Assembly (NCBI GenBank): GCA_022823465.1
Contig: JAJEHX010000053.1
Coordinates: forward strand, 1 to 64,000
DNA: 64,000 nt
Direction of reading: 5' to 3'
Source of the DNA: Candidatus Latescibacterota bacterium
GTDB taxonomy: Bacteria; JAAXHH01
Shown here: positions 3,018-32,313 of the stretch, in pieces
Layout of the letters: the number at the start of each line of letters is the position of its first letter
How positions within the stretch are numbered: position 1 is the stretch's first letter
Program-made: the position numbers and the translations under genes
Notes under the pieces: model-generated
What the model saw: only the letters and a program-made list of their open reading frames with translations
Databases searched by the model: none
Told to the model about the DNA's origin: nothing

Positions 3018-3136
3018 TGGATCATGTTTCTCCGGTGCGGTGTCGGCGTTCCGCTAGTATCTGCTTGATGCTGCTCTGCTTGATACTGCTTTCCTTTGGG
3101 CTCCGCAGAAATGTCCGTCCGCACTTCCCCTTGCCT

Positions 3137-4333: not shown

Positions 4334-4513
4334 GGATGCTCCCGGGCGAATGGATCCGGTTTCGCTTCTGGCTTGCGACCATGATAATGATTCGCATGCC
4401 GTTCACGCACGTGTTTTCGAAAAGAAAACGCCGACGGAACGCGCGTCCACATGACGTGACGGGCGTTCCCACCGGCATTATCGCATACGACCCGATCTCT
4501 TACGAACAACCAA

Positions 4514-5668: not shown

Positions 5669-5927
5669 GTTTTCCCCGCTTCCTTCCGTCACCGGGCCCG
5701 CGGCACGCGCTCCCGAAGTATTGATGAATGAATGAAATGCTCTGCATTGCACATCTGAATTGCGCTATTGCGCTAATGATTTCTGGTAATAAGAAACCCC
5801 AAATCTGGTATAATTCAAATAAATAATTACTATAATATCTATAAGTTTTATCTATAATAAGCAGACGACCTCAGACTAACCCTGAAAACACGCGCAAAAC
5901 ACGCGCAAAACACACGGAGCCAAGCCG
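5669..5927. promoter_or_regulatory. AT-rich divergent promoter region between ino1 and the LysR gene
   Basis: The stretch 5750-5870 is far more AT-rich than the surroundings. It contains TATAAT at 5809-5814 and a 9-bp direct repeat TATCTATAA at 5836-5844 and 5849-5857. LysR proteins usually bind the region shared with a divergent target gene, so the repeat is a plausible operator. A direct repeat ACACGCGCAAA lies just before the LysR start, near 5889-5912. Exact promoters were not resolved. Confidence 0.45.
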
Positions 5928-6860: not shown

Positions 6861-7345
6861 GCGTTCAGTTCGTCGTCGATACGGGCCTGATGCCGAGGAT
6901 CTTTCGACGGGCTGCCCGAATCACTCTCGTCCCCGCGGTTCAGGCGGCCGATCCGCCACCGGCGCAACGTGATGAAGATGATCCCGCCACCGACGAGGAA
7001 CATGAGCGGAGTAAAGAGATAGGCCATCCGGTTGAAACCGGCATTAGGCGGAGCCGACAGGATGCGTTCCCCGTACATGGCCTTGTAATGATCGATGATC
7101 TCCTCGTCGGTCTTGCCGTCGGCGAGCATTTTCCGGAGATCCTCTTTCATCCTTTCAGCGGTGCCCGAGTAGTGCTGACTGAGCGGCGCGCGCCAGCAGC
7201 AAGGGGCGATCAATTGCTCCTCGACTGCCGCGGCGATCCGTTCCCGGCCATCGTCCGTGGTCGCGTCTACCCGTGAAATGGATGTACCGGGAGTCGCCAG
7301 GAGTACCAGGAATAAGAGTATGAAAAAGAGGGTGGCTCGTCGCAT
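6851..7345 (-). CDS. CcmH-like cytochrome c maturation protein with altered Cys motif
   Basis: 164 residues. There is an N-terminal signal/anchor (RRATLFFILLFLVLLATPG), a CcmH/CycL core and a C-terminal membrane segment (MAYLFTPLMFLVGGGIIFIT) followed by a charged tail. CcmH normally reduces apocytochrome c haem-binding cysteines through an LRCxxC motif. Here the matching place reads LIAPCCWRAPLSQHYSG, with two adjacent cysteines. The following helical pattern (MKEDLRKMLADGKTDEEIID, then the MYGERILSAPP-like end) is typical of the family. No other ccm genes are in the window. The variant motif may define a subfamily or another thiol role. Confidence 0.8.
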   Translation of the reverse strand: MRRATLFFILLFLVLLATPGTSISRVDATTDDGRERIAAAVEEQLIAPCCWRAPLSQHYSGTAERMKEDLRKMLADGKTDEEIIDHYKAMYGERILSAPPNAGFNRMAYLFTPLMFLVGGGIIFITLRRWRIGRLNRGDESDSGSPSKDPRHQARIDDELNAYD

Positions 7346-7442
7346 GGAACCTAAAAGACCGGCATTGGGTTAAGGCCGCATACAATCCTACTATTGTATA
7401 TACGCGAGATGGCTCAACTGTCAATGAAATTCACCTTATCGC

Positions 7443-7880
7443 TTACGGAAGACGAGCTTTTTTCGCGGCGGATCTGCCCTGTTTCAACTCGCTGATATCT
7501 ACGCTGATCCCCTCGATCAGGGTGTCCATTCTCTCGACTTTAGCATCTATTTTCTCGACTTTGGCGTCCATTCCGGCTACCTGTCCTTCCAGGGTACCCA
7601 TCCGCTCATCCAGTCTGCCCTGTTGAATCTCGACGGAGTTCATTCGCTCGTCCAGCCGGTCAAATCGCCTGTCAATAACATCAGACCGCTTGTCAACGGC
7701 ATTAAATCGCTCTTCCACGCCTTTAAATTTCTCGTCAATCCTGTCGAGAATCCGCGATTCTATGTGAAGCATTTCGGCCTTTGCTTCCCGTCTGCTCCCT
7801 TTGGCTTCCCGCCAGAAGAAAATAAAGGCCGTCAGCAATACGGCTGGTTGGATCCAGATCGATACGGTTTCCAAGTCCAT
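7443..7880 (-). CDS. Small membrane-anchored coiled-coil protein
   Basis: 145 residues. One N-terminal hydrophobic segment (IWIQPAVLLTAFIFFWR) is followed by a long heptad-rich coiled coil with repeated motifs such as DRRFDRLDERM and DAKVEKIDAKVERM. The topology and the first 25 residues resemble the 80-residue protein at 30538-30780, with a shared AFIFFW motif, so the two are probably paralogues. Such proteins often form oligomeric membrane-attached scaffolds. No family or function can be assigned from the sequence. Confidence 0.65.
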   Translation of the reverse strand: MDLETVSIWIQPAVLLTAFIFFWREAKGSRREAKAEMLHIESRILDRIDEKFKGVEERFNAVDKRSDVIDRRFDRLDERMNSVEIQQGRLDERMGTLEGQVAGMDAKVEKIDAKVERMDTLIEGISVDISELKQGRSAAKKARLP

Positions 7881-8215
7881 GCTCCTTTCCAGATGTATTG
7901 GTGCATACTGATGATATAAGGAATTAGTGGATAGCTGGCTACGAATCTCGTAATGAATCTTGCATTCGAGGGATATTTGCCGCTGAAACTCGCAAATTCC
8001 CTTGACCTTACCGGTCCTGGCCTCCTATTCTGTGGCAAAATTCGCGGGACCGCGTAGCTTGTCTCGATCAGAATTGCGGTATTGGTCTGTGCGGAGCTAT
8101 GCGCGGAGATTCCGGTGTAGGGAGCGACAGGCAGCGACGGGCATCAACAGGCAGCGTTCCCACTGCCGGCCACACCGGCTCGAAGAAACCAGAACGGAAA
8201 ACGGAGCATCCCAAC
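7881..8215. other. 335-bp intergenic region between divergent genes
   Basis: Separates the leftward coiled-coil gene from the rightward MFS gene and must hold both promoters. The part near 7895-7990 is AT-richer than the rest. The 5' part of the MFS frame stays open from 8099, but conserved sequence begins at 8216. No RNA gene or clear hairpin was seen. Confidence 0.5.
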
Positions 8216-10489: not shown

Positions 10490-10510
10490 TCAGCTGACGG
10501 TGGATTTACC

Positions 10511-10614
10511 TGGGGAATCGAATAGGGGTATTTGACTGGGAATCGAATTGGAGTATTTGCGCAGGGGTTCGAAATGAGGTATTGGCCCGAAGAATCGGAA
10601 ACAGGATCGCACCC
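10511..10614. repeat. Four-unit 26-bp degenerate tandem repeat
   Basis: Units at 10511, 10537, 10563 and 10589, related to TGGGAATCGAATNGGGTATT. The array lies between the MFS-HEAT and Gfo/Idh genes and ends 25 bp before the next start codon, so it lies in that gene's leader. The last unit is the most diverged. Confidence 0.85.
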
Positions 10615-10638
10615 GTGGTGTGGAGGAGCCATCCATCC

Positions 10639-11775
10639 ATGAACGCCAGCCACGAACAGTTCCACCTGGCCATTGCCGGGGCATGCGGACGGGGCCTCGG
10701 TTTCCGCATGGCCTGCGACGCCCTGCCCCGGGTCCGCGTCCACGCCGTGTGCGACGTCGACGCCGAGGCCCTGCCCGCCACGGCGGAACTGCTGGGCGCT
10801 TCGGAACAATACACGGATTTCGGCGAGATGCTGGAACGGTCCGACCTGGACGGGGTGATCATCGCCACGCCCATGCCCCTGCACGCGTCTCAGGCCGTCG
10901 CCGCGCTCGACCGGGGCCTGCACGTCTTCAGCGAGGTGCCGGCGGCGGTGTCGATCGAGGAGTGCCGGGGGATCGTGCAGGCGGCAAAGGCATCGGGCTG
11001 TGTATACATGATGGGCGAAAACTATACCTACATCCGGGAGAACGTGCTGGTCAGGGAACTGGTGAAGGCGGGTCATTTCGGCACGCCCTACTATGCCGAG
11101 GGAGAATACCTCCACGAGCTCAAGGGATACGACGAGCGCCGCCTGGCGGCCCGGGGCCTGCCGCCCGAACAGGTCTGGCGCCGCCACTGGCAGTCCGGCA
11201 TCGACGGCATTACCTACGGGACCCACAGCCTGGGGCCCATCCTACAGTGGTTCGACGACCGCGTCGCCCACGTCACCTGTCACGGCAGCGGGCATCACTA
11301 CCTGGACGCGGAAGGCAAGCCCTACGCGCAGGACACCAGCGTCATGCTCTGCAAGATGGCAGGCGGCGGACTGGCCAAGATCCGGATGGACCTCACCTCC
11401 GACCGGCCTCACGCGCTCACCAACTACCAGCTCCAGGGCACCGACGGTTGCTACGAATCGGCGCGGGACCCGGGGCAGGAATTCCGGCTCTGGCTTCGGT
11501 CCCGGTGCGAGGACGAGAACACGTGGATGGACCTCCACGAACTGGAGGACGAGTTCCTGCCCGACGCGATGAAGGCGGCGGCCGCACAGGGCGCCGGCCA
11601 CGGCGGGAGCGACTACCACGAACTCGTGGAATTCATCGACGCCGTGGAAGGCCGCCGCAAGCCATCCATCGGCCTGCACGAGGCCATGGACATGACCCTG
11701 CCCGGCCTCGTCAGCCAGCAGTCCATCGCCGAAAACGGGAGCACCCTGCCTGTGCCTGATTCGAGGGACTGGTAG
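10639..11775 (+). CDS. Gfo/Idh/MocA-family oxidoreductase
   Basis: 378 residues. ATG at 10639 is preceded by TGGAGGAG, which decides this start over a frame opening 57 bp upstream. The N-terminal Rossmann motif reads LAIAGACGRGLGFRMA, a GxxGxG variant. The segment VIIATPMPLHASQAVAALDR and VFSEVPAAVSIEEC correspond to the usual substrate loop; SEVP replaces the common EKP motif, so the catalytic Lys is not at its normal place. ITYGTHSLGPILQWF supplies the conserved His. Substrate is unknown. It precedes two PLP enzymes on the same strand, but a gap of about 200 bp with a repeat array separates them. Confidence 0.87.
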   Translation: MNASHEQFHLAIAGACGRGLGFRMACDALPRVRVHAVCDVDAEALPATAELLGASEQYTDFGEMLERSDLDGVIIATPMPLHASQAVAALDRGLHVFSEVPAAVSIEECRGIVQAAKASGCVYMMGENYTYIRENVLVRELVKAGHFGTPYYAEGEYLHELKGYDERRLAARGLPPEQVWRRHWQSGIDGITYGTHSLGPILQWFDDRVAHVTCHGSGHHYLDAEGKPYAQDTSVMLCKMAGGGLAKIRMDLTSDRPHALTNYQLQGTDGCYESARDPGQEFRLWLRSRCEDENTWMDLHELEDEFLPDAMKAAAAQGAGHGGSDYHELVEFIDAVEGRRKPSIGLHEAMDMTLPGLVSQQSIAENGSTLPVPDSRDW

Positions 11776-11863
11776 GGCGCATATACGGGCATTGGGCATC
11801 GGTCCATGCCAGGCGCCAGCTTCAGATTAGCCTGTACGCAACCGACTCGCGCGGCTATACTTT

Positions 11864-11944
11864 GAACAGGCCGGACAGGTCGAACAGGCCGTTCAAGCCA
11901 TACAGGCCGAACGGGCCGGACATACCGAACAAGTCGGCCACGCC
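11864..11944. repeat. 9-bp tandem array, nnnC(C/A)GGnC family, copy 1
   Basis: Nine consecutive 9-bp units, for example GAACAGGCC, GGACAGGTC, ATACAGGCC, GAACGGGCC and GGACATACC. It lies 40 bp upstream of the DSD1-like gene. The unit phase and core match arrays at 38738-38836 and 61114-61176. Confidence 0.85.
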
Positions 11945-11983
11945 CTAATCTACCTGCATTTCATTAATTCAGGAGCACGCTCC

Positions 11984-13072
11984 ATGGCTCGCCCCGGCAG
12001 CCCGATCGAAGACATCGACACGCCCGCCCTGGTGATCGACCTCGACCTGATGGAAGGCAATATCGCCCGCATGGCGGAGTTCTTCGCCGGCAAGGCCGCC
12101 CATCTTCGGCCCCACACGAAGACGCACAAGACGCCCGTCCTGGCCCACCGGCAGATCGAGGCCGGCGCCCGGGGCGTCACCTGCGCCAAGCTGGGCGAGG
12201 CCGAAGTCATGGCGGCGGCGGGCATACGGGACATCCTCGTCGCCAACCAGGTCGTGGGACGCGTCAAGATCGACCGCCTGGTCGCCCTCGCCCGCCATTC
12301 GGACGTCATCGTCGCCGCCGACCATGAAGACAACGTCCGGGAGATCTCCGACGCGGCCGTCGCCGCCGGCACCCGGGTGAACATGATCATCGAGGTAGAC
12401 GTGGGCATGGAGCGGTGCGGCGTGCCGGCAGGAGAACCCGCGTGGCAACTCGCCCAGGCCATCGACCGCCATCCCGGCGTCAACTTCCGCGGCGTGATGG
12501 GCTACGAAGGGCATATCATCGGCAACCCGAACGACGAGGAACGCTATGCCGGATGCCGGGAATCCATGACCCTGCTGACCCAGACGGCCGATTACATCCG
12601 CGAGCGGGGCCTGCCCGTGGACCTGGTCAGTGGCGGCGGCACGGGGACGTACAAGGTCACCGGGACCTTCCCGGGCGTGAACGAGGTGCAGGCGGGTTCC
12701 TACATCCTCATGGACGGGACCTACCGGAAACGCATCCCCGAGTTCGACTGCGCGCTGACCATTTACGCCACCATCGTCAGCCGGCCCGGCGACGAACTGG
12801 CCGTCGGCGACGCGGGCCTCAAGACCATGACCAACGACATGGGCCTGCAGACCGTCCGCGGCGTGGACGGCGCGTCCATCCTGCGCCAGTCGGAGGAACA
12901 CGTCAAGATCGAGCTGCCCGGCGCGTCGTGCACCCTGAGGCCGGGCGACAAGATCCACATCGTCCCGAGCCACTGCTGCACGACCATCAACCTCCACGAC
13001 CGGTTCTACGGCGTGCGCAACGGAACCGTCGAGTCCGTATGGGACATCGCGGCCCGAGGGAAACTGCAGTAA
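11984..13072 (+). CDS. DSD1/D-threonine aldolase-family PLP enzyme (alanine racemase fold III)
   Basis: 362 residues. The N-terminal PLP barrel carries RPHTKTHKTP; the Lys in this family motif forms the Schiff base with PLP. Later PLP-phosphate-binding features include LVSGGGTGTY. The C-terminal domain has VPSHCCTTINLHDRFYG, with the His/Cys pair that binds the catalytic zinc or manganese in D-threonine aldolases and D-serine dehydratases. Likely reactions are cleavage or dehydration of a D-beta-hydroxy amino acid; the substrate is unknown. A second family member starts 9 bp downstream. Confidence 0.88.
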   Translation: MARPGSPIEDIDTPALVIDLDLMEGNIARMAEFFAGKAAHLRPHTKTHKTPVLAHRQIEAGARGVTCAKLGEAEVMAAAGIRDILVANQVVGRVKIDRLVALARHSDVIVAADHEDNVREISDAAVAAGTRVNMIIEVDVGMERCGVPAGEPAWQLAQAIDRHPGVNFRGVMGYEGHIIGNPNDEERYAGCRESMTLLTQTADYIRERGLPVDLVSGGGTGTYKVTGTFPGVNEVQAGSYILMDGTYRKRIPEFDCALTIYATIVSRPGDELAVGDAGLKTMTNDMGLQTVRGVDGASILRQSEEHVKIELPGASCTLRPGDKIHIVPSHCCTTINLHDRFYGVRNGTVESVWDIAARGKLQ

Positions 13073-13081
13073 GGAGTACCA

Positions 13082-14182
13082 ATGGACCCCCGATACCTTG
13101 TAACCAACGTCGATGAGATTCCCAGTCCGTCCATGCTGGTATACCGCGAGCGGCTGAGGGAGAACATCGACCGGACCCTGGAGATCGCGGGCGGTCCCGA
13201 ACGGCTTCGGCCCCACATCAAGACCCACAAAATGCGCACCGTCATCGAGATGCAGCGCGAGGTGGGAATCGACAAGTTCAAGTGCGCCACGATTTACGAA
13301 GCAAAGATGCTGGCGGAGATGGGCGTGGAAGACGTCTTCATCGCCTACCAGATGGTCGGTCCCAACATCGGACGGCTGGTCGATCTCGCCAGCCGTTTCC
13401 CGGGAACGACATTCCGGACCATGGTGGACGATCAGGGCGCGGCCGAGGCGCTCTCTGCGGCGGCGGCTCAAGCCGGTGTGACCATCGACGTACTGCTGGA
13501 CTTCGACGTGGGGCTGCAGCGCACCGGGATCGCAGCGGGTCCGAAGGCACTGGCGCTCTACGCGCTCCTGGACAGCCTTCCAGGTGTTACGCCCGGCGGG
13601 ATCCACGGCTACGACGGCCACAACCACCAGGAAGATCTCGAGGAGCGCAGACGGGCCTGCAGCGCGGCGCTGGACCAGGTGCGGGCTTTCCAGGCGCAAC
13701 TGGAATCCCACGGCCTGTCCGTGCCCCGGCGCGTCATGGGCGGTTCAATCTCCTTTCCATGTTATGCTCCCGCCGAAGACGTGGAACCTTCGCCTGGCAC
13801 CTCGGTATTCTGGGACTGGGGGTACAGCCGGCGCTTCCCGGACCTGCCCTTCGAGGCCGCGGCCCTGCTGCTCAGCCGCGTCATCAGCGTACCGACCGCG
13901 ACCCGCGTGACGCTCGACCTGGGCAACAAGGCCATCGCATCGGACCCCGCGGGACAGCGTGGCCTCCCCTGGAACCTTCCCGGCGCCGTACCCGGACTGC
14001 ACAACGAAGAGCACTGGATCATGGACTGCCCCGACGCTACGGGCTTTTCGGTCGGCGATCCCATCTACGTCTTCCCCACCCACGTGTGTCCCTGCACCGC
14101 GCTGCACCGCCAGGTGTACGTGATCGACGGCGACGGCCACTGCCGCGAACAGTGGCAGGTCGACGCGCGAAATCGGGAATAG
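13082..14182 (+). CDS. D-threonine aldolase/D-serine dehydratase-family PLP enzyme (tandem paralogue)
   Basis: 366 residues. Start at 13082 is preceded by TAAGGAG. It shares the RPHIKTHKM PLP-lysine motif with its upstream neighbour and has the metal site VFPTHVCPCTALHRQVYV at the C-terminus. Middle segments (LLDFDVGLQRTGIAAGPKAL, GGIHGYDGHNHQEDLEERRR) are typical of the D-TA family. Overall similarity to the upstream enzyme is limited, so this looks like an old paralogue or partner rather than a recent duplication. The two genes are probably one operon acting on D-amino acids. The last 49 bp of the gene are duplicated just downstream. Confidence 0.87.
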   Translation: MDPRYLVTNVDEIPSPSMLVYRERLRENIDRTLEIAGGPERLRPHIKTHKMRTVIEMQREVGIDKFKCATIYEAKMLAEMGVEDVFIAYQMVGPNIGRLVDLASRFPGTTFRTMVDDQGAAEALSAAAAQAGVTIDVLLDFDVGLQRTGIAAGPKALALYALLDSLPGVTPGGIHGYDGHNHQEDLEERRRACSAALDQVRAFQAQLESHGLSVPRRVMGGSISFPCYAPAEDVEPSPGTSVFWDWGYSRRFPDLPFEAAALLLSRVISVPTATRVTLDLGNKAIASDPAGQRGLPWNLPGAVPGLHNEEHWIMDCPDATGFSVGDPIYVFPTHVCPCTALHRQVYVIDGDGHCREQWQVDARNRE

Positions 14183-14249
14183 CCGGTTCGATCATCTCAC
14201 GCCACTGCCGCGCGCAGTGGCTGGCCGACGCGCGGGACCGGGAATAGCC
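14136..14249. repeat. Duplicated gene tail with hairpin, two 49-bp copies
   Basis: Copy 1 (14136-14184) is the final coding segment and stop of the PLP enzyme gene. Copy 2 (14201-14249) repeats it with 7 differences in 49 bases, including a second in-phase stop. Each copy holds an inverted repeat; in copy 2 GCCACTGC and GCAGTGGC flank a 5-base loop (14201-14221). A third, weak copy may lie near 14275-14322. No T-tract follows, so a standard intrinsic terminator is unlikely. Confidence 0.85.
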
Positions 14250-14454
14250 CTACGGATCTCAAACCACATCCGGCGCCTGGCAAAGCGGCTGGCCTACACC
14301 CGCTATCGGGAACAACATGGCCTGACTTCTACAGGCGCTCGACCGGTTCCAACCGGTTCACCCCTCCCTGGAACCTCCCCGAATCCGCCCTGAGACCTCT
14401 CCGAAATCACCCCTTATTTGTGTGACGAACGTGTTACAAATTTTAACTTTCCTA

Positions 14455-19620: not shown

Positions 19621-20841
19621 ATGAGCGAAGCAGCCAGTACGAGCGAACCAACCTCGACCGACCCCGTACTCCCCGGCGCGACCATCGGCATCCTCGGCAG
19701 CGGACAGCTCGGCCGCATGATCGCCATCGCAGCCCGGCGCATGGGGTACCGCGTCCACACGCTCTCGCCCGAATCCGACTCGCCCACCGGTCACGTCGCC
19801 GACCGCGAAATCGTGGCCGCCTATGACGACGTGGAGGCCGTGAAGCGCTTCGCCGCTGACGTGGACGTCATCACCCTGGAATTCGAGAACATATCCGCTG
19901 CCTGCGTCGACGCCGCATCACCCATCGCGCCCGTACGCCCGAAGGGTAGCGTGCTCCACACGACCCAGAACCGCCTGAGAGAGAAGACTTTTCTCGCCGA
20001 TCACGGCTTCCCCGTCGCGCCGTTTAGACACATAAAGTCGCGAGACGAACTCGCCGCAGCGGTCGAGGAAATCGGCACACCCGCCGTGCTCAAGACGGCC
20101 GGATTCGGCTACGACGGCAAGGGGCAGGTAAGGATCGCCTCGGTGGACGACGTGGACGGTGCGTGGACATCCATGGCCGGACAGGACGCGGTCCTTGAGG
20201 CGTTCATCGACTTCGACCTGGAACTGTCGGTCGTGGCCGCAAGAGGATTGGCCGGGGACTTCGCGCACTACGGTGCGGTGGAAAACAAGCACAGCAACCA
20301 CATACTTGACGTCACGACTGCCCCGGCCGACGTGTCGGGCGCAGTGAACGTCACCGCCGTGAACCTTACGAGGAAGGTGTTCGAGGCCCTCGACGTCGTC
20401 GGGGTCGCCTGCGTCGAATACTTCCTCGACCGCGGCAACAACCTCATCATCAACGAGATCGCCCCCCGCGTTCACAACTCGGGCCACTTCACCTTCGACG
20501 CCTGCGTCACAAGCCAGTTCGAGCAGCAGGTGCGCGCCGTGTGCGGGTTACCTCTGGGGTCGACCGATCAGCCACGGCCAGCGGCCATGGCCAATCTGCT
20601 GGGGGACCTTTGGGAGAACGGTGAGCCGGACTGGGCGGCGGCTCTGGCCATACCGGAAGTCAAGCTGCACCTGTACGGCAAGCAGGAAGCCCGCCCAGGG
20701 AGAAAGATGGGGCATCTGACGGCGGTGGCGGATACGCGGGAGCAGGCGGTGGAACGGGTGGTGGAGGGGAGGCGGGGGTTGGGGGCTGAAAGGTTATTTT
20801 TGAATACTAATGATCGCACAAACGCCCTTCCTAAAACATGA
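19621..20841 (+). CDS. purK: 5-(carboxyamino)imidazole ribonucleotide synthase
   Basis: 406 residues. This ATP-grasp enzyme carboxylates AIR with bicarbonate and ATP to give N5-CAIR. Visible motifs: ATIGILGSGQLGRMIAIAAR, TPAVLKTAGFGYDGKGQ, HSNHILDVTTAPADVS and NEIAPRVHNSGHFTFDACVT. The N-terminus has an extra stretch of about 17 Ser/Thr-rich residues. The last roughly 17 residues (ERLFLNTNDRTNALPKT) are encoded by DNA whose base composition drops abruptly to AT-rich from about 20790, so the native C-terminus was probably replaced by read-through into the adjacent island. The core is complete and the enzyme is likely active. Confidence 0.94.
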   Translation: MSEAASTSEPTSTDPVLPGATIGILGSGQLGRMIAIAARRMGYRVHTLSPESDSPTGHVADREIVAAYDDVEAVKRFAADVDVITLEFENISAACVDAASPIAPVRPKGSVLHTTQNRLREKTFLADHGFPVAPFRHIKSRDELAAAVEEIGTPAVLKTAGFGYDGKGQVRIASVDDVDGAWTSMAGQDAVLEAFIDFDLELSVVAARGLAGDFAHYGAVENKHSNHILDVTTAPADVSGAVNVTAVNLTRKVFEALDVVGVACVEYFLDRGNNLIINEIAPRVHNSGHFTFDACVTSQFEQQVRAVCGLPLGSTDQPRPAAMANLLGDLWENGEPDWAAALAIPEVKLHLYGKQEARPGRKMGHLTAVADTREQAVERVVEGRRGLGAERLFLNTNDRTNALPKT

Positions 20842-20992
20842 ATTTAAACCGTTCAATACCTATGTTTCAATAAAGATTCCGCCTATTAATCAAGGGAACA
20901 TTAAAAAGGTGATTTGCCTAATACTGTGCATTTGGACTGAGCCAAATCATTGGATAACAGTATCGGTAAAATTCTTAGAATGAGGTGAATGC

Positions 20993-21586
20993 ATGTTGCC
21001 CGATTTTCCAACGGTCAAGCGTAAATGGTCGAATTTGTTTGTAAGATCAGTAGAGGAGAAGGTGCCTCAGGGTACCATCTTATCGCAGATAAAGAAAGTA
21101 AGACATTTTGAAGGAGATGGGATGGAGACAAGAAGGGGTAGCGGTGATACTGATCAATCTGAATATCAGGAGTTCTGTCAAATCCTTGCAGTTCATAACT
21201 GTGATGTAATAGAAAAAGGGCCTACTGCATTTCTGGAAAAACTAGATAGTTTAGCGGAAGAATTTAGAAAAGAGCAGATGCAAATGATCCTCAATCAAGT
21301 GTCGGAATCTGTAGCTAGGACTGGAAACTCTGTTAGTGCTCAAGGTAAAGAGTTTAGTTTCGAACACCTACTCGCGGTATATGAGAAAACTGATATTGAT
21401 TTTGATGAGGATGGCAAGCCGAGTCTTCCTGTCATGCTACTACCCGAAAGTAAAAAAGACGAAATCATAGGGAAAATACGCAAGTGGGAGAACGATAGTG
21501 ACTGTAAAAGGAGATTGAATGAACTCATCGACAGAAAGAAAAAAGACTGGCTTGATAGAGAGAGCCATAGAAAACTGGCTGATTAA
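20993..21586 (+). CDS. Unknown protein, first gene of AT-rich nuclease cassette
   Basis: 197 residues. ATG at 20993 follows GAGGTGA at 20981-20987. The protein is hydrophilic, rich in Lys and Glu and predicted to be mostly helical, without signal or membrane segments. Segments include YQEFCQILAVHNCDVIEKGP, FLEKLDSLAEEFRKEQMQM and a basic end (RRLNELIDRKKKDWLDRESH). I do not recognise a family. Its last 68 bp overlap the nuclease-like gene in another frame, which suggests translational coupling and a joint function such as an adaptor, inhibitor or sensor. Confidence 0.7.
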   Translation: MLPDFPTVKRKWSNLFVRSVEEKVPQGTILSQIKKVRHFEGDGMETRRGSGDTDQSEYQEFCQILAVHNCDVIEKGPTAFLEKLDSLAEEFRKEQMQMILNQVSESVARTGNSVSAQGKEFSFEHLLAVYEKTDIDFDEDGKPSLPVMLLPESKKDEIIGKIRKWENDSDCKRRLNELIDRKKKDWLDRESHRKLAD

Positions 21587-22283
21587 TACCAATGAGCGTA
21601 ATTACCAGACTCCTTTCTGCCAAGCTTTGATGGTTCAGGGACATACTGTTCTTTTTAGATCTAAGCATCGTCCGATGGAGCAAGGTAAAGATATCGTTAC
21701 TAGAGACAAATCGGGTTGTTACCATGCTTATCAACTCAAATCAGGCGACGTCAATCAAGGCTTTTGGAGAAACATTAAAGGGGAAATTGACGCGCTTATG
21801 CAATTGCCGATTGTTCATCCCTCAGTGCAGAAGGATGATGGTCATCGCGCGTACTTAGTGTGTAATGGAGAGATTACAGACGAAGTAAGGTTTGAAATTG
21901 ACCAAATTAATGAGGATAACTTACGGAGAAACAGGGAATATGCATATCTCTATGTAATATCGTTTCCCGAGTTACTAGACATGTTTCTTCAAGCACAGAG
22001 TGAGTTCTTGCCAAAAAGTATTGAGGAATTTAGGGCTTTTCTCGAACTTCATCTGTCAGATGGTCGCGATTTCTTAGACAAGAACGAGTTAGCTAAGTTT
22101 CTTGCGAGTTCAGTGTTAACACCGGGTATCAGACAGAAGAGCGATAAGATCCATGCAATATCAAGTAGTGTAGTACTTCTAAGCCACTTACTTAAATCGT
22201 ATCAAGAAGAAGAAAACCATTTCGCACTTTTTGAAGCATGGGGGTTACTTGCTTCGGCCATTGTCGTGTTCGCCAGAATCTAG
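21519..22283 (+). CDS. Restriction-endonuclease-like protein, PD-(D/E)XK core
   Basis: 254 residues. ATG at 21519 has a strong AAAGGAG at 21507-21513 inside the preceding gene. The N-terminus GLIERAIENWLINTNERNYQ supplies a helix with candidate Glu residues. GKDIVTRDKSGCYHAYQLKS places Asp57 and Gln71-x-Lys73 in the spacing of Mrr/Holliday-resolvase-like nucleases (D, then Q-x-K). Residues 77-150 (GFWRNIKGEIDALMQLPIVH, AYLVCNGEITDEVRFEIDQI) complete an alpha/beta core. The rest is helical. It ends with tandem stops TAG TGA and overlaps the next gene. DNA cleavage in defence is an inference from fold and context. Confidence 0.7.
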   Translation: MNSSTERKKTGLIERAIENWLINTNERNYQTPFCQALMVQGHTVLFRSKHRPMEQGKDIVTRDKSGCYHAYQLKSGDVNQGFWRNIKGEIDALMQLPIVHPSVQKDDGHRAYLVCNGEITDEVRFEIDQINEDNLRRNREYAYLYVISFPELLDMFLQAQSEFLPKSIEEFRAFLELHLSDGRDFLDKNELAKFLASSVLTPGIRQKSDKIHAISSSVVLLSHLLKSYQEEENHFALFEAWGLLASAIVVFARI

Positions 22284-23145
22284 TGAATTGAGTGATGGAT
22301 GGCACACATCCTTTAGACTGGTACTGGATGAAGCTACGGTTAGCCTTCATCATCTCAAGGATGAAGCACTATCAAGAACTGACTTTCTTGAAGGCGACCC
22401 AATGGGCGATGGCGACCTAATGTATAAAGGTAGAGTTACGATCATATTAGGTGCCATATCGGTGCTAGAGTTGCAGCGTCTTGAAGAGGGTAAAAACGAA
22501 AAACCAGATGACAGGATAGTTGAACTAGTACTTAACAACATTGGTAGATTGTGGCTTTGGGGTGATTCGGCGGTTCCTTTTTTCCTAAACATTGTTTGGT
22601 TGTTGGAGGCGGCAAATCAAACTGAAACGGCAAATGAACTTCTGAAAGATCTACTTACAGCAATAATCGATACGAATAGTAGATCGCACAGAGATGTATG
22701 CCCTTTACCATCGCCCTATTACTCACTCTCTCAAATATTGGAAACTCAGTACGGAGTTACAGAAGAACCAATTGATTTCGAGTCGTTTGTCGATCACTCA
22801 TATTGTCTGAGTGTCATAGTGCAAACATTAGCAAGAAGAAACCATCGGGAGACTTTGGAACAATACTGGCGGAAGATATCTCATTTCTACGTACATGAAT
22901 TTGTCCCCAAGCGAGATATAGATTACCTGGCTTGGTTTGTTGAGGATGGGAAGAACGCAGGCTACTTCTTGCCGGAAACACAAAGTTGGAAGTGTCTAGT
23001 TGAAGAATCGAACAAGAGATCTAAGAGCGATTTGACGAAGTACAAAACGATACTTCGTATGATGACTTTACTTGCTCCTCATCGGCTTACACCCAAAACA
23101 GCGAACATTTTAGATCCGTGTGTCTCCGTAACGACATGCCACTAG
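22231..23145 (+). CDS. Helical protein, probable C-terminal part of the nuclease-like protein
   Basis: The frame is open from TTG at 22231 and codes for up to 304 residues; it overlaps the nuclease-like gene by 53 bp in the +1 frame. No good ribosome-binding site precedes the TTG. The conserved-looking part begins after the overlap (SDGWHTSFRLVLDEATVSLH). It is helical with Trp/Leu-rich patches (NNIGRLWLWGDSAVPFFLNI) and ends ILRMMTLLAPHRLTPKTANI plus a short tail. The lack of a start signal suggests that it was once, or still is, joined to the preceding frame by a frameshift. No family recognised. Confidence 0.55.
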   Translation: MKHGGYLLRPLSCSPESSELSDGWHTSFRLVLDEATVSLHHLKDEALSRTDFLEGDPMGDGDLMYKGRVTIILGAISVLELQRLEEGKNEKPDDRIVELVLNNIGRLWLWGDSAVPFFLNIVWLLEAANQTETANELLKDLLTAIIDTNSRSHRDVCPLPSPYYSLSQILETQYGVTEEPIDFESFVDHSYCLSVIVQTLARRNHRETLEQYWRKISHFYVHEFVPKRDIDYLAWFVEDGKNAGYFLPETQSWKCLVEESNKRSKSDLTKYKTILRMMTLLAPHRLTPKTANILDPCVSVTTCH

Positions 23146-23225
23146 ATTATAGGAGAAGGAAGGACATTTATCACCATGATTTCGTATCGTTAAACAATAT
23201 TAAGAATCGATCACAATAACAACAC

Positions 23226-24338
23226 TCACACCATCCCCCTCAAAGTCTCCACAGCCTCGTCCAGATACTCATCCTGAGACAGCTCTCCTTCAATCAGATC
23301 CGGCCTGTGACCACCCCACAGTGTAGCCAGCACCAGCGTCTCCCCGATATCCCATAACGTCCAGGCGTTCGCGAAGATTGGAAGGCAGTCCAACTCTGCC
23401 TGGGTCAATGACCGTACCCGGTTGTATCCTTCCAGGAAACAGCGCCATATCTCGTCCGTTAAGTGATCGGGTACCGTTTCCATGATGTTGTACTTGAAGG
23501 TCGCCACGTCGTACGCCCGCCAGCCGAAGGCGCACTGGTCGAAATCCAGGATACAGTATCCGTCATCGGGATTGTACAGTATGTTTCCGACGTGCAGGTC
23601 GGCGTGGATGAGACCGTAGGTGTCCTTGCCCTTGCCAAGTCCACTGATCTGGCTACGCATGTGATCGGCGTAATCCTTGAAAAACGACAGGTCCTCGCTG
23701 CGCCGCTCCTTGAGGATGGATTCCAGCGTTTGCAGCGGACCGTCCAGCAGGTATTGCAGATCGAAATGATGACGACAGTATGGCACCTGAAACTGGTCCG
23801 CCCGCCGGTGGATCTCGGCCACGGCGGAACCGAAGGAGATCACGATCGGCTCGTTCACTTCGGGATGCCAGGTGACGTGCTCCTCGCCCTCGAAGAAATG
23901 GAACAAGGCTCCGTAGCGGGGTGGGTCTGATGGGTCTGCCGACTGATTGGCTGAGGCGCCCATTACACTCAACCGCTCTCCATCCAACCGCTTTGCCGGT
24001 TCAGGAACGGCCAGCTTGTACTCTTTTAGGTACGCCAGCAGGTCGAGTTCATACCGATAGGCCTCGGGGTTGCGGACGTAGAAGTCGTGATCGGTATATA
24101 TCCTGTAAACGTACCGTTGGTCCTGTGACGTAACGAGGAAGTTCCGGTTGGCCCCACGCTCCAGTTCGCGCACTTCGACGGGTCCGGCCAGGCCGTAGTG
24201 ATCCGCCAGATATGATGCGATGGAAGAGCAGGACGGATCAGCAGATTCGGAAGAAGCGTCGGGACCGGAAGAAGCGTCGGGACCGAACGAAGCGTCAGGA
24301 CCGGACGAAGCGTTAGATGCGGTAGAATCAGGTGTCAT
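23226..24338 (-). CDS. Phosphotransferase (APH/choline kinase/homoserine kinase II-like)
   Basis: 370 residues with a kinase-like fold. The catalytic loop YGLIHADLHVGNILYN near residue 245 and the metal-binding YCILDFDQCAFGWRAYD are clear. The ATP-binding N-lobe starts at RELERGANRNFLVTSQDQRY. The first 30 residues are a low-complexity repeat of the type ASSGPD, encoded by short tandem repeats at about 24237-24320. ATG 24338 is chosen; a TTG six codons upstream is possible. Substrate is unknown. The family includes homoserine, choline, fructosamine and aminoglycoside kinases. Confidence 0.85.
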   Translation of the reverse strand: MTPDSTASNASSGPDASFGPDASSGPDASSESADPSCSSIASYLADHYGLAGPVEVRELERGANRNFLVTSQDQRYVYRIYTDHDFYVRNPEAYRYELDLLAYLKEYKLAVPEPAKRLDGERLSVMGASANQSADPSDPPRYGALFHFFEGEEHVTWHPEVNEPIVISFGSAVAEIHRRADQFQVPYCRHHFDLQYLLDGPLQTLESILKERRSEDLSFFKDYADHMRSQISGLGKGKDTYGLIHADLHVGNILYNPDDGYCILDFDQCAFGWRAYDVATFKYNIMETVPDHLTDEIWRCFLEGYNRVRSLTQAELDCLPIFANAWTLWDIGETLVLATLWGGHRPDLIEGELSQDEYLDEAVETLRGMV

Positions 24339-24400
24339 ATCCACGATGGTCTCCAATATGGGTTTGCGAACTTGACCAGGGCAACAGGTTTCAGTTCATT

Positions 24401-27049: not shown

Positions 27050-28162
27050 TCACCGCGCGAGCCACGTGCTGAAGCGCTCGTTCATCTCTTCGCCGTTGTC
27101 GCTCCACCATTCCCAGTCGTTGTGCAGCGCCCGGACCGCGTTCTCCGGCGTTGTGGGCATGTGCGGCCTCATGACCACTCCTGTCTCGGCGTGGGTCGAG
27201 ATCAGGGGCATGGCGGAACGGCGCGTCGGGCTGTAGGCGATGTACCGGGCGAGGCCGGCCATGGACTCCGCCGTGGTGGCGAAGTTGAGAAACCGGAGCG
27301 CGGCTTCGGGGTTGCGCGTGCCCTCGACGATGCCGAACCCGCTCGAATCCAGGACCTGGCCGTCCCAGACGATGACAAAAGGCTGATCCTCCAGCACCTG
27401 GGCGTTGAAGATGCGCCCGTTGTAGGCCGTGGTCATCACCACCTCGCCGTCGGCCAGCAACTGCGGCGGATGGGCCCCGGTCTCCCACCATATGATGTGT
27501 TCCTTGATGGTATCCAGCTTGCGGAAGGCCCGGGCGATGCCCTCCTCGGTGTCCAGCGTGGCATATACTTCGTCCAGCGGCACGCCGTCCGCCATCAGCG
27601 CGAATTCGAGATTGACCCGCGGAACCCGACGCATGCCCCTGCGGCCCGGGAACTTCTCCAAGTCGAAGAAGTCGTCGATGGCGGTGGGTTTCAAGTCCCC
27701 GATGCGTTCGTCGTTGTACGCGAAAACCGTTGAAAAGAAGAGTGTCGTCACACCGCATTCCGTGATCGTACCGTCAACGAAGTCATCTACGGCCGGCGTG
27801 CCATCAGCGCCCGGAGACAGATTGTCGATGTTGATTGGAACGAGCAGTCCTTCATCGCAACCCCGGACGAGTTCGGCCACATTCAGATCAACTACGTCCC
27901 AGTACACGTTCCCCACGTCCACCTGCGCGCGGATCTGCGCCAGCCCGCCGTTGTAGTCCTCGAAGTTGATTTCAATGCCCGTCTCGGATTCGAACCGCTC
28001 GTGGTAGCCCTTCTCACAGGCGCGGGAGTAGGACCCGCCGAAGCTGACGACGGTTATTGTCTGGTTTTGGGCGGTAACCTGGCCCGGGGAATATGCAATG
28101 AGCGAGGTCAATGCCACCAGGGACGAAAGGACGGTATGAATCATGGGGGAATTGCTCGGCAT
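27050..28162 (-). CDS. Extracellular solute-binding protein, spermidine/putrescine (PotD/PotF) type
   Basis: 370 residues with a hydrophobic N-terminal export signal ending near AYSPGQVTAQNQ. The mature protein starts ITVVSFGGSYSRACEKGYHE, typical of the PotD/iron-binding cluster, and contains WDVVDLNVAELVRGCDEGLL, a binding-cleft segment. GVTTLFFSTVFAYNDERIGD and IIWWETGAHPPQLLADGEVV fit polyamine-type binders. It would deliver a small solute to an ABC transporter in the inner membrane. No permease or ATPase gene is adjacent, so it is an orphan here. Located 45 bp upstream of a PhyH gene on the same strand; the two may be co-transcribed. Confidence 0.88.
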   Translation of the reverse strand: MPSNSPMIHTVLSSLVALTSLIAYSPGQVTAQNQTITVVSFGGSYSRACEKGYHERFESETGIEINFEDYNGGLAQIRAQVDVGNVYWDVVDLNVAELVRGCDEGLLVPINIDNLSPGADGTPAVDDFVDGTITECGVTTLFFSTVFAYNDERIGDLKPTAIDDFFDLEKFPGRRGMRRVPRVNLEFALMADGVPLDEVYATLDTEEGIARAFRKLDTIKEHIIWWETGAHPPQLLADGEVVMTTAYNGRIFNAQVLEDQPFVIVWDGQVLDSSGFGIVEGTRNPEAALRFLNFATTAESMAGLARYIAYSPTRRSAMPLISTHAETGVVMRPHMPTTPENAVRALHNDWEWWSDNGEEMNERFSTWLAR

Positions 28163-28283
28163 TCGGACTTTTCTCCGGTTGTTCGGAAAGGGAACGTGAT
28201 GGATGGAGGGGTGGATGGTTGATTGATCTGATGAAGCTAAATTAGGTAAAATGTGTCAATTATCAATTCAAAACGGGCGGGAT

Positions 28284-29165
28284 TCAGGGGTAGGCACTGT
28301 AAATCGCAGGCGTAAGCTGAATACGATCCTCCGGCGGTGGCTCCAGGCGGTACGCTCGCGCTTTTCTACGGAAATCGTATAACCTCACGACTCTGAAGAT
28401 CTCCGGGTTCTCCTCGGATACGTTCAACTCGTTTCTGGTAATGAAGAACGGGGTTGTCTTCGGACCGTTCGTCGTTTTAATCTCCAGCCAGCGCTCGCGG
28501 CTGGCCTCGTAACCTGTACCTGTTCCATGGAAAGACCGGATATCGAAGCCGTAACCATCCCCATCGTCCCTGGCGACCCAACGTACATCGTCAGCCAGAT
28601 CCTGCCTGCCCAGCATGGACAACCTCTTACGCTCCAATTCGAACACGAACTCCTCGCCTGCCTTTCCAAGCATGCGATTACGGGCATCCCGCTCGGCGGG
28701 AGGTTCGAACTTCCGTATTATCCTGCTGATGTCTTCTGGAAATTGCGGATCTGTGACTTCCAAAGGTAACGGTGCGTCTACATAGACCTGTTCCGGGTCA
28801 ACTACCCGTTCCGTATCTATGCGAAACTCGGGTAAAGGTTCCCCTACCGCAGCAGCCTCTCCCGTCAGCGACGAATAAAGAACAGCGTCGTCATGAAGTC
28901 GTGCCTGCACCGCCTCGAACAACGCCTGTTGGAAATTACTGTAAGGTTTATAACCATCGATATAAGGAAGACCGAGCACGGCCAACACCGCGCTGATGTT
29001 CATATGCTTGCGCTCAATCGATCCCTTGGTACGATCAACCGTATCCATGAGTGCAAGACGATGTTCGGTCTTGTTGTAATGTCGTCCCTCCAGTTCGAGC
29101 GCTAGCATCTTGAAGTAGTCATCTACGATGGCGGCGATTTCGGCTTCGGACCAGTTTCGGGGCAT
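28284..29165 (-). CDS. DUF3883-domain protein, PD-(D/E)XK nuclease-like
   Basis: 293 residues. The N-terminal part (WSEAEIAAIVDDYFKMLALE, then SIERKHMNISAVLAVLGLPY and GYKPYSNFQQALFEAV) is a module often found in front of nuclease domains in restriction-type proteins. The C-terminal DUF3883 domain carries GYGFDIRSFHG (Asp near 207) and RWLEIKTTNG (Glu-x-Lys near 227), followed by FFITRNELNVSEE. This is a Mrr-like catalytic pattern. A stand-alone restriction or defence role is inferred; no methylase or helicase is adjacent. Confidence 0.85.
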   Translation of the reverse strand: MPRNWSEAEIAAIVDDYFKMLALELEGRHYNKTEHRLALMDTVDRTKGSIERKHMNISAVLAVLGLPYIDGYKPYSNFQQALFEAVQARLHDDAVLYSSLTGEAAAVGEPLPEFRIDTERVVDPEQVYVDAPLPLEVTDPQFPEDISRIIRKFEPPAERDARNRMLGKAGEEFVFELERKRLSMLGRQDLADDVRWVARDDGDGYGFDIRSFHGTGTGYEASRERWLEIKTTNGPKTTPFFITRNELNVSEENPEIFRVVRLYDFRRKARAYRLEPPPEDRIQLTPAIYSAYP

Positions 29166-29270
29166 GTTTTGTTTGGTCAGTCAATGGTTGCCAGGCGACA
29201 CCATTGTCAAGCAAATGCAACTGTTTGTGTTCTTAAAGGTACGCCCAGGTCAACTATGCGTTCGTTTGTA

Positions 29271-29333
29271 TGAAAAATGTATACCATGTCGTAAAAAAAC
29301 TATGAAATCTTACAACGTGGTATACACATTTCA
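29271..29333. repeat. 24-bp imperfect inverted repeat with GTATAC core
   Basis: Arms 29271-29294 and 29310-29333 match at 20 of 24 positions around a 15-base AT-rich loop, with TGTATACCA as the longest conserved run. It lies in the AT-rich 216-bp gap between the DUF3883 gene start (29165) and the end of a PhyH gene (29382). No T-tract follows on either strand, so an operator or element end is as likely as a terminator. Confidence 0.85.
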
Positions 29334-29381
29334 CATTTACTTCAGTCTAGTTCCCGCCTTTTCGACTGACCCACTCCACAC

Positions 29382-30167
29382 CTACCGCAATAGCTCGCCC
29401 GGAATCCTGGACCCGGGATATTCCACCTCGGGGTCGCGTTCGGCGATGATGGCCGGCACCGGATCGGTCCAGTAGGCCGGCACGGTGTCGGGGCGTCTGT
29501 GCCAGGCCAGTACCAGGGTGCGGCGTTCGTCGGTCAGGTTCCGATGCGCCGAGTGCAGCACACGGGCATCGGCCAGTACCAGGTCACCGGCCTTGACGCA
29601 GACCTCGACCTGGTCCGGGTGGTCGCTGAACATGGTGGGATGGTCCTCGGCAATGAAGCGGGCGCCCTGTTCATGGGCCGGCAACAATTGGTCGTGCAGC
29701 GGGATGCGTTTGAGGTGGGTTCCCGGGATGATTTTGAGGCATCCGTTCTCTCGCGATGTATCGCTCAGGTAGTAGGATACGAAGATGATCTGCGGCCAGG
29801 GACAGCAGCTCATCGGATCGTTCCACTGCATCCAGTCCTGGTGCCAGTACAGTGCCGGTTCACCGGGGTCTTTGGTGAGGAGGATGACACCACCGGTGCT
29901 GGCAAAGTCGCCCAGACCCATCTGTTCAAGGGCGCGCCGCGTGGCGGGCCAGTCAAGCAGCTTCTGGATGGTCGGGTTCTCAGCCCCCTGCGCCGTGACG
30001 TGCTGACCCTGGTACTTGTAATCGGGCGGCGGCACCCAGTCTTCCATCATACGCTCGGTTTCGATGCGCAACTCCTGAAGGAAAGATCCGCTGAGTATCT
30101 CGTCGACCACGCAGAAGCCGTCGCGCATCAGTTGTTGGCGTTTTTCAAGGGCTTGTTCGGGGGTCAT
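29382..30167 (-). CDS. Phytanoyl-CoA dioxygenase (PhyH)-family protein, copy 2
   Basis: 261 residues from ATG 30167, with CGAGGA upstream; a longer frame exists but is not conserved in type. Fe(II)/2-oxoglutarate oxygenase. The iron triad is seen in ALYWHQDWMQW (H-x-D) and ADARVLHSAHRN (distal His), with an Arg in DERRTLVLAWHRR as 2-oxoglutarate ligand. NGCLKIIPGTHLKRIPLHDQ is the family's typical core loop. It differs clearly from the copies at 26090 and 56351, so these are separate subfamilies. Substrate unknown. Confidence 0.9.
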   Translation of the reverse strand: MTPEQALEKRQQLMRDGFCVVDEILSGSFLQELRIETERMMEDWVPPPDYKYQGQHVTAQGAENPTIQKLLDWPATRRALEQMGLGDFASTGGVILLTKDPGEPALYWHQDWMQWNDPMSCCPWPQIIFVSYYLSDTSRENGCLKIIPGTHLKRIPLHDQLLPAHEQGARFIAEDHPTMFSDHPDQVEVCVKAGDLVLADARVLHSAHRNLTDERRTLVLAWHRRPDTVPAYWTDPVPAIIAERDPEVEYPGSRIPGELLR

Positions 30168-30537
30168 GGAATCCTCGCTGAAATGTGGTGAAGCCGGATA
30201 CCTGCAATCAATCCTATCCAAGGATGAGGTAAACAAGGTATTCTCTAAGTATACACGAATCAAGATCGACCTATGACTCAATCGGCGTTTCTCTCTACCG
30301 GGTCTGGCGGTGCTACACCTGTTTTCCCGCATTACATCACTTGTCTTCTTTCGCTTTCTGATTCCGCACAACAATCGCCTCAGTTACGCAAGCCCACACA
30401 AAAAACTCCCCTTTCGCACGATTAATTCCAGATTTGCTGCGTTTTCTTCGACTGATACTTAAGGAAGCGGTGGTAGCCCACATCGATTCGAAGCGCGACT
30501 GAGACCATTCACCCGAACTCCATCGAAGGAGCAAACC
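30168..30537. other. 370-bp intergenic region between divergent genes
   Basis: Lies between the PhyH gene (leftward) and a small membrane protein gene (rightward) and should hold both promoters. It is of mixed composition. I saw no tRNA, repeat array, clear hairpin or convincing promoter in it. Confidence 0.4.
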
Positions 30538-30780
30538 ATGGAACTCGCCCAGCTTCTCCTGACACCAGCTACACTACTGGCGGCCTTCATCTTCTTCTGG
30601 AAACAGACTCAAGTCATCAGCAATGAACTGAGGAGGGAATTAAAGTCAGTCAAGGAGGAGTTAAAGGAAGAGATCGTGTCCGTTCGCAAGGATCTTACAT
30701 CCATCCGGGTCGAAATGCACGACATGAACGGACGCCTCAGTCGTATCGAGGGTCTGCTGAAGATAACGGATTCCGGTTGA
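30538..30780 (+). CDS. Small membrane-anchored coiled-coil protein (paralogue of 7443-7880)
   Basis: 80 residues. ATG 30538 is preceded by GAAGGAG. One N-terminal hydrophobic segment (LLLTPATLLAAFIFFWK) and a charged coiled coil (ELRRELKSVKEELKEEIVSV, then MNGRLSRIEGLLK). The AFIFFW motif and layout match the 145-residue protein at 7443-7880. Function unknown; probably a membrane-tethered oligomer. Confidence 0.7.
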   Translation: MELAQLLLTPATLLAAFIFFWKQTQVISNELRRELKSVKEELKEEIVSVRKDLTSIRVEMHDMNGRLSRIEGLLKITDSG

Positions 30781-30795
30781 TTCCGGCGAACTGTC

Positions 30796-32313
30796 TCAAC
30801 CCTCCGCCAGCTTCTTCCGCAACAACTCGTTCACCAGCTTCGGATTGGCCTTGCCCTGGGTCGCGCGCATGACCTGGCCCATGAAGAAGCCCAGGAGCTT
30901 GGTCTTGCCTGCCCGGTAGTCGGCCACGTCGTCGGGATGTTCGGCGAGGATGCCGTCGACGACGCCTTCGAGTTCGCCGGTGTCGGAGATCTGCACGAGG
31001 CCCTGCTCCTCGATGACCGAGGCAGGCGCCTTGCCGGATTCGGCCATGACGTCGAGGACGTCTTTGCCGATCTTGCCGCTGATTTTGCCTTCCTTGATCT
31101 GTCCGAGAAGCTGGGCAAGGTGATCGGGCGGAATGCGCTCTTCCAGAGTCTGCTGGTCCATGCGGTTCTCGTGCTGGACACGGAGGAGTTCGCTGAGCAT
31201 CCAGTTGCTGACGGTGCGCGCATCGCCGGCCGCTTTGCCGGACGCTTCGCCGGAGTCCTGGCTAGCCGCTTCGCCGGACGCGTCTCCGGCTACTTGGCCG
31301 ACGCAGGCTTCGAAATAGTCAGCCCGTGCACGGTTCTCCGTCAGTTGCCGCGCCATGTCCTGTGGCAGTCCGTAATCTTCGACGAATCGCTGCATGCGCA
31401 CGTCGGGGAGTTCGGGCAGGTCTTCGCCGATCTCATCCACCCAGGATCGGGCGATCTCGACGGTGACGAGGTCGGGGTCGGGGAAGTACCGGTAGTCGTG
31501 GGCTTCCTCCTTCGACCGCATGGGGAAGGTCTCCCGCTCTTCCTCGTTCCACAGGCGGGTCTGGCGCACGACCCTCCCGCCGTCGTCGAGCAGGTCGGCC
31601 TGCCGTTCGATCTCGAACTCCAGCGCCCGTTCCATGGACCGCATGGAGTTCATGTTCTTGATCTCGACGAGCTCGCCCAGGGGATCGCCGGGCTTGCGGA
31701 TGGACACGTTGGCGTCGCAGCGCAGGCTGCCCTCATCCATGTTGCCGTCACAGACGCCGATGTACTGCAGGATCTGCCGCAGCCGGGCGAGGTAGGCCGA
31801 GGCTTCGCGGGGGCTTCGGATGTCGGGTTCGCTGACGATCTCCATGAGGGGGACGCCCGTGCGGTTGAAGTCGATGTAGCTCAGGTCCGGATCGTACCCG
31901 GGCTCGCTGTGGATGGATTTGCCGGCTTCTTCCTCCAGGTGGATCCGCCGGAGCCGGACGAAACGGGGACCGTCTTCGCCCTCGATCTCGATGCCGCCGT
32001 CCAGGGAGATGGGTTCGCCCGCCCGGTCGTACTGCGAGATCTGGTAGCCCTTGGGCAGGTCCGGGTAGAAGTAGTTCTTTCGGGCGAAGGCGCTGGTCTC
32101 GGCCACGCGGCCGTCCACGGCCAGCGCCATGCGAATCGTGTATTCGACGGCGCGGCGGTTCAGGACGGGCAGGACGCCCGGCATGCCGAGGCAGATGGGG
32201 CAGACGCGGCTGTTCGGCTCGCCGCCGAAGGCCACGGGGCATCCGCAGAAGATCTTCGAATTCGTCAGGAGCTGGGCGTGCACTTCCAGCCCGATCACCG
32301 CTTCGTAGTTCAT
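30796..32313 (-). CDS. gatB: Asp-tRNA(Asn)/Glu-tRNA(Gln) amidotransferase subunit B
   Basis: 505 residues. With GatA and GatC it converts misacylated Glu-tRNA(Gln) or Asp-tRNA(Asn) to the cognate amide. [20 protein letters not shown] with a zinc-binding Cys pair ([18 protein letters not shown]), [19 protein letters not shown] and EEEAGKSIH are diagnostic. The C-terminal GatB/Yqey domain ends [18 protein letters not shown]. Near residues 336-366 a low-complexity insertion ([20 protein letters not shown]) is encoded by short repeats at about 31225-31300. It overlaps gatA by 4 bp; gatC is not in the window. Confidence 0.96.

Follow-up and report, generated by a model that had tools for sequence, protein, structure and literature searches.

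A paired nuclease gene and its partner in an AT-rich interval at the purK 3' end of a Candidatus Latescibacterota genome: a candidate defence module

Results

We examined a 64,000-nucleotide stretch of DNA from a Candidatus Latescibacterota bacterium (assembly GCA_022823465.1, contig JAJEHX010000053.1, positions 1 to 64,000 of the forward strand), here called the window, and within it an AT-rich interval that holds a pair of genes, A and B, the second of which encodes a predicted PD-(D/E)XK nuclease. The interval reaches from the last codons of purK to the stop codon of a convergent kinase gene (20785 to 23222), limits drawn from guanine plus cytosine (GC) content and from DNA similarity to sister genomes, which stops at about 20772-20789 and restarts at about 23212-23226. 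Its GC content is 40.7%, against 62.3% (standard deviation 2.4, minimum 53.7%) in 2436-base segments from the rest of the 64 kb. A preliminary description of this DNA had placed an AT-rich block of foreign composition between purK and a kinase gene, and both the position and the composition were borne out by measurement. Other stretches of lowered GC content (about 52-57%) lie at 7001-8500 and 27501-31000 of the window. Three open reading frames (ORFs) are present in the interval, at 20993-21586, 21519-22283 and 22231-23145; no Rfam family reached its gathering score in 20600-23400, and matches to promoter and terminator consensus sequences did not exceed those in shuffled sequence.

Ten loci carrying this gene pair were compared: the window itself, six found when genome contigs were scanned by pattern with the 254-residue second ORF as query, an approach that reaches close relatives only, one plasmid, and two from a profile search of 396 genomes. 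Gene A lies directly upstream of gene B in all ten. In the window the end of A, stop codon included, overlaps the start of B by 35 nucleotides (21552 to 21586, forward strand), and the same length recurs in nine of the ten loci, the single exception being L024, where the overlap is 44 nucleotides. The overlapping arrangement proposed from the window alone is therefore a near-fixed register across the family.

The three frames had first been read as three proteins, a reading that did not survive comparison with homologues. The second ORF (254 amino acids, aa) aligns to residues 5-253 of the B protein at locus L002 with 66% identity, and the third (304 aa, counted from TTG 22231) to residues 243-537 of the same protein with 47% identity. 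Since the two frames match consecutive parts of one protein, the third is not a separate gene but the out-of-frame 3' half of B. Gene B in the window accordingly consists of a 5' part encoding a Mrr-like PD-(D/E)XK nuclease domain and the first helices (21552 to 22283, forward strand) and a 3' part in another frame encoding a helical C-terminal region (22288 to 23145, forward strand). A three-component system could be read from the overlapping chain of three open frames, but B is a single open frame of 510-555 aa in eight of ten loci, and we consider three separate genes very improbable. L019 is counted among the eight, although its frame of 526 aa was matched by the profile at positions 2-146 only. 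The two split copies are those of the window and of L004, from an acidobacterium. The start of B in the window is probably TTG 21552 rather than ATG 21519, because the start codons of homologues align there, that of L008 one codon earlier.

The frame change in the window lies between about 22270 and 22290, with no homopolymer at the break, and that of L004 (1585-3096) falls elsewhere, near profile position 386-388. Programmed frameshifting as a family trait is not supported, the gene being unsplit in most loci and broken at different places in the two others. Faster decay of the C-terminal half of window B was likewise not seen: ratios of C-half to N-half identity were 0.69-0.85 in the five pairs that include window B and 0.60-1.01 in ten other pairs. 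It follows that the break is recent, or else an assembly error. Barring such an error or continued cooperation of the two parts, the local copy probably has no activity; in principle both halves could still be made. We lean slightly towards regarding the local copy as a dead remnant, whatever the family does, a view that is compatible with any function proposed below. B is split here, and no second copy of the 254-aa part was found elsewhere in the window's genome. Against this, each half still has an open frame, of 254 and about 285 codons respectively, and retains family-level conservation, and an assembly error is conceivable, though the break lacks a homopolymer.

The preliminary description had recognized in the 254-aa protein a D-x13-Q-x-K pattern of PD-(D/E)XK nucleases. 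Presence and spacing of the pattern stand, while its residue numbers (57, 71 and 73) are one too low: counted from ATG 21519, the residues are D58, Q72 and K74. The Glu, Asp, Gln and Lys of the nuclease motif are invariant in all ten B homologues. An AlphaFold model of L002 B, built with seven aligned rows (mean predicted local distance difference test score, pLDDT, 78.1), shows within its first 150 or so residues the PD-(D/E)XK order of elements (helix 20-29, strands 33-37, 49-52 and 58-64, helix 70-85, strand 99-105). Among the best matches to this model in VIA-align were FokI (Z 10.2 over 139 residues, 3.8 A), AF1548 (Z 10.0 over 110 residues, 2.6 A) and MspJI (Z 9.4 over 126 residues, 3.1 A), and EndoMS/NucS repair enzymes appeared as well, at Z of about 8. 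On the modelled structure, with the core in place and the acidic, Gln and Lys residues found, B is thus a member of the PD-(D/E)XK superfamily. The nuclease core predicted from the letters was in this way supported by superposition on FokI- and MspJI-type catalytic domains, and the fold comparison, a non-nuclease fold having been named beforehand as the outcome that would count against the prediction, came out in its favour. Beyond the nuclease domain B is helical and gave weak repeat-like matches only.

Profile libraries were less informative. The B protein of Rhodococcus matched Pfam Mrr_cat (PF04471) at 22.8 bits (cut-off 21); neither part of window B matched it, nor did L002 B or L007 B. 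For both window parts Pfam and PADLOC gave nothing at E<=1, while NCBIfam and PHROGs returned chance-level rows only; viperin and MptN rows for the third ORF, together with the PHROGs rows, were dismissed as chance. The 254-aa piece had no match at E<=1 among sequences of solved structures, and the B family profile drew seven chance-level rows there (lipases and a glutathione transferase). An IMP dehydrogenase row in one of six B members (E 0.055) was also set aside as chance. In the viral library no match to B reached E<=0.001, the best being a phage restriction endonuclease (E 2.1e-3).

Gene A (20993 to 21586, forward strand) encodes 197 residues, mostly helical in a low-confidence model, and matches no known family. 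It had no match at E<=1 in Pfam, PADLOC or NCBIfam, and a single PHROGs row at E=0.16. Its profile gave seven rows at E 0.2-1 among sequences of solved structures (fibrinogen, spidroin), which we take as noise, and fold comparison of its model returned no useful match. A Pfam row for the A protein of L007 at E 0.035 lay below the cut-off and was rejected as chance.

The pair occurs rarely and in scattered lineages, and so far A and B have always come together, a pattern indicative of horizontal transfer. In the 396-genome search, in which A was searched separately, A and B were found in the same three genomes (G021, G081 and G274, the seed included) and neither was found alone, so that the co-occurrence of the 197-aa and nuclease proteins, whose absence the preliminary description had named as a refutation, holds in genomes as it does in the ten loci. 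Draws around four relatives, covering three phyla and one class, gave B in 3 of 396, 1 of 297, 1 of 301 and 1 of 369 genomes, seeds counted; in these searches only part of the first-look candidates was scored for some genomes. Within the window's own phylum B was present in one of 16 genomes, that of the window. A weak second match in the L002 genome (L017, E 3.6e-4) was excluded from the family counts. By record title the hosts of the homologues are Gammaproteobacteria, Anaerolineales, Acidobacteria, Kiritimatiellae and two actinomycetes, with two more loci besides. Transfer is indicated because the loci cross phyla while B was not found in 15 of the 16 genomes of the window's phylum. The composition of the homologous cassettes varies: GC content is clearly under that of the contig in L003, L021, L022 and L024 and moderately under it in L023, and close to it in L005 (0.593 vs 0.590), L004 (0.574 vs 0.551) and L008 (0.567 vs 0.593); for L002 the comparison draws on only 319 bases of flank.

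The site at which the pair sits is variable within the genus. On the left lies purK (19621 to 20841, forward strand; matching Pfam ATP-grasp and PurK_C), whose last 18 codons enter the cassette, and sister genes stop earlier; on the right lies a convergent APH-family kinase gene (23226 to 24356, reverse strand), which closes the variable interval. The genus set comprised 12 genomes including the window's; purK was found in 12 and the kinase in 11, and in 10 a single contig carried the ends of the two genes that face each other. G002, with the two genes on separate contigs, was left aside. The kinase had no match at E<=1e-30 in the other-genus relatives G001 and G013. In 11 readable genomes the interval varies in size and content, with seven kinds of content, and the C-terminal tail of purK varies along with it, the tail in the window running 18 residues into the cassette. 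By our own count three of the seven kinds are of defence type; A-B is counted among these as a candidate, beside PsyrTA and the EVE-REase gene described below. In G009 the interval (L061, 842-4264) contains a PsyrTA pair, which we take to be a defence system, with PsyrA at 3.6e-138 and PsyrT at 1.8e-290 and both models matched nearly end to end. In G012 (L062, 1349-2440) it holds a gene in which an EVE domain is fused to a region with a REase_II match, and a 75% identical stretch occurs in G007 (L082, reverse strand, where the contig ends); this gene likely encodes a modification-dependent nuclease. The G008 interval (L060, about 1160-14330) spans about 13 kb and carries PP2C/SpoIIE, Ser/Thr kinase, vWA, MotA-like and M48 protease genes, as well as FHA-like and trypsin-like genes recognized by eye. 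It looks like a signalling-type system and could not be assigned to a named one. Of the remaining intervals, that of G005 holds an AIG2-like gene (G011 has a stretch of similar DNA), that of G006 a Sel1 gene and that of G010 a 187-aa ORF with no Pfam match, to which similar DNA is found in G003 and G004. Near the interval of G004 (L080) two ORFs of 188 and 201 aa are related to each other and the kinase occurs a second time as a partial copy, which suggests local duplication.

Instead of defence, A-B might serve a mobile element in its transfer, repair or recombination, a role that we find improbable. The likeness of the nuclease fold to EndoMS/NucS repair enzymes would suit it, as would the mobile-element genes near two homologues: at L005 an integrase and a transposase, at L018 what is left of a transposase. 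At the site itself, G008 has a second purK 3' segment (13352-13565, 214 bp, 82.7% identical), a divergent copy that suggests element-mediated exchange there. The window cassette, however, has no recombinase among its ORFs by ORF list and Pfam, and no word of 9-14 bp, direct or inverted, is common to 20701-21000 and 23081-23300. On these results a site-specific integrative element, recognizable by a recombinase and by att-like repeats at both ends, was not identified next to purK in the window.

The neighbours of the homologous loci provide the remaining evidence; outside L007 and L008 the scan covered ten chosen neighbours only. In Actinospica, a pPIWI-RE island (a domain Y/REase gene, a DinG-like helicase and pPIWI) lies upstream of A-B. 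Downstream follow a 358-aa gene (L021, 10322-11398) that matches the HamB C-terminal part weakly, and then a full-length TmtA (1281.7 bits), which we take to be Tiamat. On the Rhodococcus plasmid pdjl-6-4, A-B occurs with an OLD/GajA-like ATPase gene (called from the best 25 of its 142 PADLOC rows), a DEDDh-type exonuclease gene and, downstream of A-B, a HamB-like helicase; with HamB-like genes after A-B in both hosts, this neighbourhood may recur. A nucleotidyltransferase assigned to PADLOC family PDC-S09 stands after the pair in the Kiritimatiellae locus. In L002 a tRNA-Thr precedes the pair and an ADP-ribosylglycohydrolase gene comes after it, L003 lies among metabolic genes as judged by eye, and L019 lies near a BldD-like regulator. 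Of the enrichment near known defence genes that had been anticipated, the two actinomycete loci are clear cases and the other non-window loci are not clearly so. Housekeeping surroundings and native composition, named in advance as grounds for doubt, were met with in part, several homologues lying in housekeeping or mobile contexts and some having a GC content close to that of their contig.

These surroundings also bear on whether A-B is primarily an addiction module of the toxin-antitoxin kind, with A as antidote or immunity partner, B as a toxic nuclease and post-segregational killing to keep the pair in place. A small protein followed by a nuclease, the near-fixed overlap of 35 nucleotides, insertion of the two genes with no other cargo and the existence of one plasmid copy are all consistent with such a module. 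So are the PDC-S09 nucleotidyltransferase beside one homologue and the fact that A is open in both loci where B is split. B, on the other hand, is large for a toxin of this kind and carries a long helical region unlike small toxins, and genes for pPIWI-RE, TmtA and HamB-like proteins adjoin homologues. We regard a primary addiction role as unlikely, though more plausible than service to a mobile element; addiction and defence are not mutually exclusive.

Discussion

Following this comparison, we propose that the A-B block is a horizontally acquired two-gene nuclease defence module, seated at a variable purK 3' site and with its local B gene apparently broken. We put the probability of this reading at roughly 0.6, the defence role being inferred by association. 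Because unsplit copies occur in distantly related bacteria, in two cases beside recognized defence genes, A-B is a good candidate for a defence system against phages that has yet to be described. Our literature search, which was non-exhaustive, found no description of the A-B pair or of a purK defence site, including in the parts of PMC9122126 that were consulted.

Several observations weigh against this proposal. Clear defence neighbours accompany only two of the nine non-window loci; contigs L002 and L004 are too short for their neighbours to be judged, and five other loci have housekeeping, mobile or ambiguous surroundings. Several of the homologues come from short contigs in metagenome-assembled genomes, so that their host labels may be wrong. 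The scans of phage and viral collections made with B found no homologue of it, and among 72,556 plasmid records B occurred in one. The cargo of the purK-kinase interval is not all defence, as the Sel1 gene, the AIG2-like gene and the 187-aa ORF attest. Low GC content (0.40-0.52) is shared by all seven sister purK-kinase intervals measured, and for this reason the composition of A-B is by itself not special. On the structural side, Foldseek of the L002 B model gave no PDB match at E<=0.001, and the model of gene A is poor (pLDDT 64.6).

A mechanism can nevertheless be sketched. A and B might form one complex, with coupled translation providing a fixed ratio of the two proteins, and within this complex A could restrain or load B. 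The helical part of B, or A, or both, would recognize a signal of the invader, such as the DNA of a phage or plasmid, which might carry modifications of the sort that Mrr-type enzymes respond to. Sensing would then unleash DNA cleavage by B, and the outcome could be either restriction or abortive infection. In its boldest form, this idea describes a phylum-crossing two-gene anti-phage system in which A, of unknown fold, controls a Mrr/FokI-like B with a helical sensor of its own, while the purK-kinase interval is a hotspot at which defence genes are swapped and where a frameshift has only recently put the local system out of action. We hold this fuller version tentatively, at somewhat under even odds. 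Should an intact A-B pair protect against phage, the described systems would gain a compact nuclease module of two genes, one of them encoding a partner whose fold has not been assigned. It would also point to the end of purK, in a thinly sampled phylum (16 genomes searched), as a place where exchanged cargo, defence genes among it, has been naturally collected and can be mined directly.

The expectation that no named system contains this set of genes agreed with PADLOC 2.0.0 (2023), in which we found no model that names A-B, and the same holds for NCBIfam and, beyond Mrr_cat in one member, for Pfam. There are nonetheless several systems with which the pair can be compared. Lamassu, composed of the effector LmuA, a Cap4-type nuclease, and the SMC-family protein LmuB, shows some likeness to B through a weak PADLOC match of L002 B (E 0.0039, residues 44-185) and through a fold match (9nxx, Z 7.3). 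Unlike Lamassu, the window cassette lacks both an LmuB of the SMC type and any other PADLOC match, and is flanked by purK and the kinase; A and both parts of B were without a PADLOC match at E<=1, so that the pair does not answer to the Lamassu definition. Avs4, Shedu and Cap4 resemble B in joining a PD-(D/E)XK nuclease to another region (fold matches of Z 7.5, 7.0 and 6.4). Pfam finds no NTPase or SAVED domain in B, however, and A-B consists of two genes with a near-fixed overlap. The fold matches to LmuA, Shedu, Avs4 and Cap4 (Z 6.4-7.5) are at a level that VIA-align flags as common.

Hachiman, which we take to be HamA/B, is linked to A-B by the HamB-like helicase downstream of the pair on the Rhodococcus plasmid and by the weak HamB match downstream in Actinospica. 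A and B, in contrast, match no HamA model, and the window cassette contains no helicase, so that HamA and a HamB helicase, which together define Hachiman, are not what the pair encodes. A further comparison is with the type IV restriction endonucleases of the Mrr / Mrr_cat family (PF04471). B shares with them the PD-(D/E)XK core and the D...QxK motif, and MspJI, a modification-dependent enzyme, is among its closest folds. B can be filed in the PD-(D/E)XK superfamily, with partial support from Mrr_cat. Unlike Mrr, it has about 300 or more extra helical residues and a constant partner in A; the pair most probably acts like other single-effector nuclease defence modules.

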